Shown one piece after another: positions 15,978 to 18,224 of a stretch of DNA of 64,000 nucleotides; positions within the stretch are counted from its first letter, which is position 1; each line of letters begins with the position of its first letter. The translations under genes were made by a program, and so were the position numbers. The notes under the pieces were generated by a model. That model had not been told where the DNA came from. It did no database searches and saw only the letters and a program-made list of their open reading frames with translations. This DNA comes from an uncultured Acidimicrobiales bacterium (GTDB taxonomy: Bacteria > Actinomycetota > Acidimicrobiia > Acidimicrobiales > Aldehydirespiratoraceae): contig CATOTC010000001.1 in assembly GCA_951812975.1 (NCBI GenBank), forward strand, positions 62,001 to 126,000, written 5' to 3'.

Positions 15978-16341
<364 letters not shown>

Positions 16342-16345
<4 letters not shown>

Positions 16346-17166
16346 ACTTGCTGCTTCGCTTCGCGGGGGTCTTCTAAAGTGATGGTCCAGCCGGGGCCGA
16401 GTTCGCTGTCGAAGCGATGCTGGAACATACCTAAGAGCATTGACGCGGGCAGGATGCATTCGGCGCAGGCTTCGTCGGGAATGTGGAGACGGAGCCTGAT
16501 GTGGCGTCTGGCGACTGAGGCGGTGAGGTCGGCACGATCCGCACGCAAGACAGCCGCCAATCTCTCAACCACACCAGCCGCGTCGGCGGCGGTGGACGCA
16601 CCAGCCACTCCAGCCGGGTCGCGTGCAGCGGGTTCGTCGGCGGCTGTGGTTAGCAGAGCCAGCACGGTCGGGGTTGCCGCATCAGCAAGGGCCTTTGCCT
16701 CAGCCGTGGTCAGGCTGCCGATCGGGTGCGGCACCGTGGCAAACGGATACTCAGCGAAACCCTGCAGTTCAGCGATTGCGGTGCCGGTAACGGCAAACGG
16801 TTCAGTCACAACCGCCACGGCGGGCACGCCTCGCTGCTCGAAGTTGACAGCATCGAGCACACTGCTCGACGAACAACTGCCTCAATCACCAATGGCCGCG
16901 ATGATCGCTGACACATCGGCGGCCAACGACTCCACATCCTCGGGGCTGGCTGGAAGGTTGGCAGTGGGCTTCATCACCAGCACAGAATCACGTGCCCCGT
17001 GGAGGTCTATGAGATTCTGGGCAACCCGTTGAAGGATCCCTGGGGCGTGCGTCTTTCCGTTGCTCACCAGCCCGATCACCGCACCCTCCAACGAGTCGGG
17101 CCGCGGCGCCCGCGCGGCGCCGGAACTGGGAATGGTCAGCGTCGGGTCTACCAAGGTAATGGTCAT
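16342..17166 (-). CDS. UGSC-family selenoprotein (in-frame UGA at 16882-16884 read as selenocysteine)
   Basis: 274 aa if UGA is read as Sec. The ORF track splits it into 94 aa (16882-17166) and 172 aa (16342-16860), but these are one continuous frame: ...IAAIGD-U-GSCSSSS-VLDAVNFEQRG... Sec95 and Cys98 form U-G-S-C, the hallmark of the UGSC (seleno)protein family, a redox-type U-x-x-C pair. The second half starts without an independent start codon or Shine-Dalgarno site and continues the fold (GVPAVAVVTEPF, YPFATVPHPIGSLT, then a helical stretch and IPDEACAECILP). A SECIS-like hairpin follows the UGA at the right distance. The gene overlaps its upstream partner by 4 bp (ATGA). Biochemical role unknown; a thiol/selenol reductase or adduct-forming enzyme is a guess. 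Confidence 0.9.
16851..16871 (-). promoter_or_regulatory. Bacterial SECIS-like hairpin downstream of the Sec UGA
   Basis: On the minus strand the sequence cgtcgagcAGTGTgctcgatg folds into an 8-bp stem (one G-U pair) with a 5-nt loop. The loop starts about 19 nt after the UGA and has G at its second base. Known bacterial SECIS elements have an apical loop 16-37 nt from the UGA with a G among the first two loop bases, where SelB binds. Confidence 0.8.
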
Positions 17167-18224
17167 GGCATGAGTATCTCCCGGGTGATGAGCGGAACGC
17201 TGCGGTCCCGGCTCCAGGTTGGAAAGAAAGACGAGTGGCCGCCGGCATCACCGCCGCCGACCATGAGCGCAATGTCATCGGGGCAGGTGCCACGGGGAAC
17301 GTTGATGCGCTCATCGCCCGGCAGAACTTGCGGGTCGGTTTCCATCCATTGGGTGGGATGGAAACCACTGACGTTTCCGGCCGCTTCCACCTTGCCGCCG
17401 CGTTTCACTTCGGCATAGCTGCGGGTTGCGTGAGTGAACAGATATTCCTGCACCTGAGGCCGGGTCCAGCCCGCCGCACCGATTTTGCGGGCGTGCTCGG
17501 GAGCGAACACCACCAGCGATCGCCCTGAACTGAGCGATCCGAGGGCCGACATCGTGTCGGCGAACGTGCCGAGCAACCCCTCAGGATCAGGCGAAGCGTG
17601 GTTCAACACGTTGTGACCCGACTCGGCTGCCATGACCGTGACCGTACTCTGGCCAGGCGCATAGCCAAGCGAGACATGATACGGCTCCCATGGGCTAGCC
17701 GCCTCGTGTTCCCCGAAACACATCGCGTACTTGCCGGCCCAGCCTTGAGTGCTTTTGTCGAGCTTGCCAGGAATGGACGAGAGGCAGTTCCGCAACACCA
17801 GCCGCACGGCACGTCCGATCGTGGCGTTGGCCCGAAAACCCGGGCCAAACAGGTTCTCCTTGTAGTGGATACCGACCTCGTCGCGGATCGGTCCGTTCAC
17901 GGCGGTGAGAATTGCTGCGCCACCAGTGCTGGCCGACACAGCATGCAACTCGAAGGTCGGGTCGCCGATAGCTGCGAGCACTGCGCCCAAGACCGGAAAA
18001 TGCTCGGGCAGGCATCCGGCCATTACAGCATTCGCGGCTGCCTTGTGAGCGGTGACCTCAAGATTGCGCGCGGGTTCGTGCAACAACACTTCGTGGGTGT
18101 CCCACACACCACCGGCCAGCATGGCGCCGACCAGCGGCTCGGTCGGCGGCACCACCGGCAGGCCGTCGGTCCAACCTGATTCATAACAAGCCTCAATGGC
18201 CTGCCAGGGGTCGCTCAGTTTCAT
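17163..18224 (-). CDS. Conserved protein coupled to the UGSC selenoprotein
   Basis: 353 aa from the ATG at 18224 (MKLSDPWQAIEACYESGWTDGLPVVPPTE); the ORF track's extra 47 codons upstream look unrelated. I do not recognise a named enzyme family. Visible features are a Gly/Ala-rich core (AHKAAANAVMAGCLPEHFPVL, GPIRDEVGIHYKENLFGPGFRANATIGRAVRLVLRN), an MCFGEHEAASPWEPYHV segment with His and Glu residues, and GNVSGFHPTQWMETDP. It has no signal peptide or membrane helix. Its stop overlaps the selenoprotein start (ATGA), so the two are almost certainly made together and may form a complex or act on the same substrate. Confidence 0.85.
   Translation of the reverse strand: MKLSDPWQAIEACYESGWTDGLPVVPPTEPLVGAMLAGGVWDTHEVLLHEPARNLEVTAHKAAANAVMAGCLPEHFPVLGAVLAAIGDPTFELHAVSASTGGAAILTAVNGPIRDEVGIHYKENLFGPGFRANATIGRAVRLVLRNCLSSIPGKLDKSTQGWAGKYAMCFGEHEAASPWEPYHVSLGYAPGQSTVTVMAAESGHNVLNHASPDPEGLLGTFADTMSALGSLSSGRSLVVFAPEHARKIGAAGWTRPQVQEYLFTHATRSYAEVKRGGKVEAAGNVSGFHPTQWMETDPQVLPGDERINVPRGTCPDDIALMVGGGDAGGHSSFFPTWSRDRSVPLITREILMP

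Follow-up and report, generated by a model that had tools for sequence, protein, structure and literature searches.

Among described selenoproteins, the closest relatives of the locus reported here belong to the UGSC family (PF24696, NF041046), which was named by Zhang and Gladyshev in 2008 (PMC2398784) and is itself already known. In that paper, UGSC proteins are placed among the most abundant selenoproteins of aquatic metagenomes, are considered likely to be thioredoxin-like (Trx-like), and are said to occur in a fusion with a domain called 'Unknown_1'. A review from 2026 likewise lists UGSC among the Trx-fold proteins. A second point of reference is given by PrdB and GrdB, the selenocysteine (Sec) proteins of proline and glycine reductase, which are homologous to one another (PMC13188914). 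Finally, the natural recoding of stop codons other than TGA to Sec is known (PMC10778597).

Here, we analyse a UGSC locus from an uncultured Acidimicrobiales bacterium. The window (the whole stretch of DNA analysed, 64,000 nucleotides) holds the following features of interest:

16342-17166, minus strand: gene for a UGSC-family selenoprotein of 274 residues, Sec95 included, followed by a TGA stop
16882-16884, minus strand: TGA codon, almost certainly read as selenocysteine (Sec95), as judged from the TGA/Cys pattern, the Sec machinery and a TAG in Geodermatophilus ruber
16648-17154, minus strand: UGSC domain (residues 5-173), from Pfam, with AlphaFold2 pLDDT of about 95-98 over the core
16846-16881, minus strand: SECIS-like hairpin whose apical loop, GUG at 16862-16860, lies 19 nt beyond the TGA
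16345-16590, minus strand: C-terminal NifU-like CxxC domain (Cys234, Cys237) in one chain with the UGSC domain, common to four orthologues
17163-18224, minus strand: partner gene, 353 aa, with the motif GWTDGLPVVPPT and an ATGA overlap with the UGSC start codon

One reading frame across an in-frame TGA

On the minus strand, the frame 17166-16342 runs through 94 codons to a TGA at 16884-16882, and then through 179 further codons to a closing TGA at 16344-16342 (MTITLVDP...AIGD-TGA-GSCSSSSVLDAV...REAKQQV-TGA). Read through, it gives a product of 274 residues with the motif IGD-U-GSC-SSSS, in which Sec is residue 95 and Cys98 is the C of U-x-x-C. A preliminary description of this DNA had taken two adjacent minus-strand ORFs for a single frame split only by the TGA, and had assigned the product to the UGSC family. 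Both points are borne out. Pfam PF24696 spans the TGA with a single domain (residues 5-173, 166.6 bits, E=7.6e-49, cut-off 25 bits), compared with 56 and 70 bits for the halves on either side; NCBIfam NF041046 scores 124 bits, 1 bit short of its cut-off of 125. Moreover, the third-position bias (from codon-position differences against four orthologues) is equal before and after the TGA. The single-frame structure across the TGA is conserved far beyond chance. Mechanical ORF callers indeed yield two ORFs at this locus, as had been foreseen for automated annotation.

Two further remarks of that description need revision. The second ORF was said to have no credible start; amended, this becomes that its 'start', a GTG at 16860, lies within the SECIS-like hairpin and inside the conserved core. 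Coupling to the 'next gene' had also been offered in support of readthrough, and this argument is withdrawn, since the four-base overlap with the UGSC start (ATGA, 17163-17166) involves the gene that comes before UGSC, whose coupling is therefore uninformative on readthrough. The downstream neighbour is the gene for an RNA on the opposite strand, namely a class A RNase P RNA (15985-16342, plus strand), which is convergent with the UGSC gene and whose 3' end coincides with the final base of the UGSC stop codon.

The codon at the Sec site is strongly patterned across relatives. Among 117 distinct UGSC relatives of the order it is TGA in 111 and TGT or TGC (Cys) in the other six (L070-L074, L076), and TGA is again the codon in nearly all UGSC genes at 80 loci of other phyla that were located through the partner. 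A conserved stop that is not followed by a continuation of the frame was found in none of the homologues examined, the sole stop other than TGA being the TAG of G. ruber. The host genome (3.02 Mb, six contigs) encodes selA followed directly by selB, a tRNA-Sec with anticodon TCA (65.5 bits), and a selD that is itself Sec-encoding (SHGAG-U-GCK; G000 C3:215187-216113, L018), as well as two further UGSC genes with one TGA each. UGSC genes are present in 68 of 148 genomes of the order. Some relatives carry UGAC, UGGC or UGNC at the motif (L191, L195, L201, L215, L216, L221, L227), so the name 'UGSC' is narrower than the family.

The G. ruber gene (L230, 5400-6100) has TAG at the Sec site, is otherwise intact and adjoins a partner gene. 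The top-scoring tRNA-Sec match of this species (66.6 bits) carries a CTA anticodon, which is why ARAGORN labels it 'Pyl'; the other match above the cut-off is an ordinary tRNA-Ser. The codon at the Sec site thus tracks the anticodon of tRNA-Sec. Two more UGSC copies in the same genome contain no stops (L255 is also listed for G. ruber). Other stop codons recoded to Sec were reportedly described by Mukai in 2016, with Geodermatophilus said to be among the cases.

A SECIS hairpin lies inside the reading frame just after the TGA, for which the evidence is strong at the level of the family and weak in the single-sequence z-score. Folded alone, the window's hairpin reaches -17.5 kcal/mol with a z of -1.7, and so is weak on its own. 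Across 192 genes, however, the mean folding energy is lowest in the segment that starts at the TGA (-17.3 kcal/mol, against -10.8 to -15.6 elsewhere), with the apical loop most often 17-19 nt downstream of it. Pairing in the eight-pair stem reaches 85% over 154 distinct sequences, compared with 16-52% for slid partners, and exceeds all 500 shuffles. The closing pairs of the stem swap between C-G and G-C (CAGTGTG vs GAGTGTC), that is, a compensatory change. The six Cys-containing UGSC genes fold about as well as the Sec genes, and six is too small a number for a no-SECIS control, so that the argument for the hairpin rests on position and covariation.

The comparisons proposed in the preliminary description (Cys-GSC homologues at residue 95, the genes selA to selD, and homologues with a conserved stop) therefore come out on the side of its central claim, an in-frame UGA that encodes the selenocysteine of a UGSC selenoprotein: the Cys versions exist, selA, selB, selD and tRNA-Sec are in the genome, and the one TAG is paired with a CTA-anticodon tRNA-Sec. 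Beyond what that description had noted, the analysis brought out the partner gene, the NifU-like tail, the relation to PrdB/GrdB and the SECIS element. Together with the SECIS covariation, this leaves us nearly certain that Sec is incorporated at TGA 16884-16882 via SelA, SelB, SelD and tRNA-Sec.

The partner gene

The gene preceding UGSC, whose start at 18224 was picked from homologues, belongs to a family with the conserved motifs GWTDGLPVVPPT, AGC, GR and E, and with conserved Cys71 and Cys169. Its closest named match, at 76% identity, comes from an Acidimicrobiia genome. None of the 74 family members tested matched a Pfam or NCBIfam model, and an identity as a pyruvoyl subunit was rejected, there being no significant Pfam match (GrdE/PrdA type included).

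Within the order, about 110 of the 117 UGSC copies either are fused to the partner or have it on their own strand no more than ~600 nt away, on one side or the other. In 16 cases of this set it forms the C-terminal half of a fusion; four loci have no partner match, two of them at contig ends. Such C-terminal fusions were verified as one frame, for example in L145 and L227. Five apparent N-terminal fusions (L032, L043, L097, L106, L134) were rejected, as their frame was unchecked and their partner ORF lengths are those of separate genes. Both genes occur in 66 of the 148 genomes, UGSC only in two and the partner only in one, and copy numbers are similar (3/3 in the host genome, 10/10 in genome G012). 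The pair extends to Dehalococcoidia, Rokubacteria, Alpha-, Beta- and Gammaproteobacteria and others. In these other phyla 79 of 89 partner copies lie at most 700 nt from a UGSC gene (one of the 79 on the opposite strand), while the remaining ten include four at contig ends and the TAG case. One scan of genome contigs with the partner profile returned more than 500 partner loci in species representatives, where a scan with a single protein had found nothing. Given the adjacency in either gene order, the fusions, the co-occurrence and the similar copy numbers, UGSC and its partner very probably form a functional complex.

The structure model of the partner (pLDDT 91.7) has no confident fold match in the PDB, the weak ones being class I fumarases and cyclic amide hydrolases (E>0.01, TM<0.4). 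Sequence hits to designed TIM barrels in the PDB were rejected as composition artefacts, and a joint UGSC-partner alignment for modelling the fused protein was dropped because it wrongly placed UGSC tails against the partner.

Around UGSC loci, the neighbours (transporters, dehydrogenases, CoA enzymes, amidohydrolases) vary widely, and no dominant gene family emerged from enrichment analysis of these loci, so that no substrate can be named. This variety fits catabolic enzymes acting on varied substrates. In addition, the ten UGSC and ten partner genes of G012, a genome of the order (L076-L083 and other contigs), suggest substrate diversification, and UGSC paralogues probably differ in substrate.

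Predicted fold and proposed chemistry

AlphaFold2 models the UGSC core as a five-stranded Rossmann-like alpha/beta domain (pLDDT ~95-98). Sec95 is predicted to sit between strand 87-93 and helix 96-111, with U-G-S-C at the end of strand 3. No thioredoxin fold is among the 50 PDB structures that match the model best, and its Foldseek matches are to generic Rossmann-like alpha/beta folds with E above 0.001. The predicted fold is thus Rossmann-like, and not thioredoxin-like as published. With a PrdB-like profile built from selenoproteins of the same order, hhalign aligns UGSC over 83 columns (83.8% probability, E=7.9e-6, ~20% identity; 0.4% probability for the control pair), with the two Sec residues superposed and Cys98 opposite Cys174 of PrdB. 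The next-best weak hits are the NCBIfam models of GrdB and PrdB, for which the UGSC protein stays far below the cut-offs of TIGR04483 and TIGR01917 (E=0.036 and 0.0064). We infer a shared ancestry with the PrdB/GrdB Sec domain, in the sense of remote homology only. PrdB-like selenoproteins with U-P-x-C are themselves found in many genomes of the order, including one in the same genus (L239-L254), and in these PF07355 extends no further than the Sec codon.

Four close orthologues share the C-terminal domain (residues 193-274, with C234-A-E-C237). Taken by itself, the window copy finds no match in Pfam. Small separate genes belonging to its family lie near other UGSC pairs; two of them do match PF01106, the NifU model (E=1.7e-11 and 8.4e-9), and the order partner-UGSC-short-chain dehydrogenase-NifU-like recurs at L030, L062, L072 and apparently L077. 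Overall, a minority of UGSC loci have a NifU-like domain.

On balance, we favour the view that the locus encodes a two-subunit reductive selenoenzyme, in which Sec95 and Cys98 act as in proline and glycine reductase. Here, the TGA is almost certainly decoded by SelA, SelB, SelD and tRNA-Sec with the help of the in-frame SECIS hairpin, and the preceding gene supplies the near-constant, fusible partner. Sec95, placed where a central strand ends and a helix begins within a Rossmann-like domain akin to the PrdB/GrdB Sec domain, would attack as a selenolate a substrate held mainly by the partner. A carbon-heteroatom bond would be broken reductively, leaving Sec95 in an Se-S bridge with Cys98, and a carrier would re-reduce this bridge. 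The candidate carrier in the window is the fused NifU-like CxxC domain, which might alternatively serve an Fe-S cluster in the partner.

The strength of this reading differs between its parts. Computation gives good support both to the use of Sec and to the association of the two genes. The PrdB/GrdB-like chemistry is put forward tentatively, from homology and structure prediction: it is suggested by the Sec-on-Sec hhalign alignment, the weak GrdB/PrdB hits, the Rossmann-like model and the NifU-like domain. Several points count against the explanation, namely the missing GrdE/PrdA match, the lack of a confident partner fold, a PrdB link of only ~83 columns, generic Foldseek matches, a NifU-like domain in a minority of loci, and widely varying neighbours. 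With the same reserve, UGSC and the GWTDGLPVVPPT protein may represent a widespread and hitherto unrecognised class of two-subunit, selenium-dependent reductive enzymes in bacteria outside the classic Stickland fermenters, and it is conceivable, as one joint proposal, that this class shares the Sec domain of proline and glycine reductase while a new substrate-binding subunit replaces the pyruvoyl subunit.

Two other enzyme types are each unlikely in our estimate. UGSC could be a general Trx-type thiol-selenol oxidoreductase that reduces peroxides or disulfides, with the partner as its substrate protein; the redox-like UxxC motif and the published Trx-like assignments noted above point this way, but the confident model has a parallel Rossmann-like sheet with no thioredoxin among its best 50 PDB matches, profile comparison brings the Sec into register with that of PrdB, and the presence of as many as ten paralogous pairs in a genome points to substrate-specific enzymes. 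An equally improbable candidate is a non-redox or Fe-S-dependent lyase or hydratase, with a catalytic or metal-binding Sec and a NifU-like domain delivering Fe-S to the partner. The conserved Cys71 and Cys169, the weak resemblance of the partner to class I fumarases and the NifU-like domain (as a fusion or a separate operon gene) would agree with such an enzyme, whereas those fold matches are far below confidence, the NifU-like domain occurs only in a minority, and UxxC is typical of redox selenoproteins. That the TGA is a true stop, so that the locus makes two proteins or is a truncated pseudogene, is consistent with the two mechanically called ORFs and the hairpin z of only -1.7, and has a negligible chance against the conserved TGA-or-Cys pattern, family-wide SECIS covariation, the coding pattern continuing after the TGA, the full Sec machinery and the match of the G. 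ruber TAG with a tRNA-Sec(CUA).

Comparison with known systems

No function has been assigned to UGSC since its naming, and the partner, together with the PrdB/GrdB homology, turns this into a concrete question, namely what the complex reduces. There is also a practical side: gene callers will go on cutting UGSC genes in two, and partner genes are likewise without a Pfam or NCBIfam model. The literature searched mentions neither the fold assignment and the relation to PrdB, nor the NifU-like fusion, nor the TAG/CTA case. The near-constant partner gene is missing from it as well, unless it corresponds to the fused 'Unknown_1' of the 2008 paper (PMC2398784), which may indeed be the partner.

Compared with the described UGSC family (PF24696, NF041046), the protein agrees in motif, Sec position, core-domain length and the far commoner use of Sec than Cys, and differs in its C-terminal NifU-like domain. 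The latter resembles PF01106 in its CxxC within an alpha/beta fold and in length, with separate operon relatives above the Pfam cut-off, while in the window this domain forms part of a selenoprotein and its sequence has drifted too far for Pfam to recognise it. Relative to PrdB and GrdB (TIGR04483, PF07355), UGSC differs in having no significant full-family match, a partner unlike GrdE/PrdA, and hosts not known for Stickland fermentation. What it has in common with them is the aligned Sec and +3 Cys, followed by a helix, a G-[IV]-P strand and a P-[IL]-G turn.
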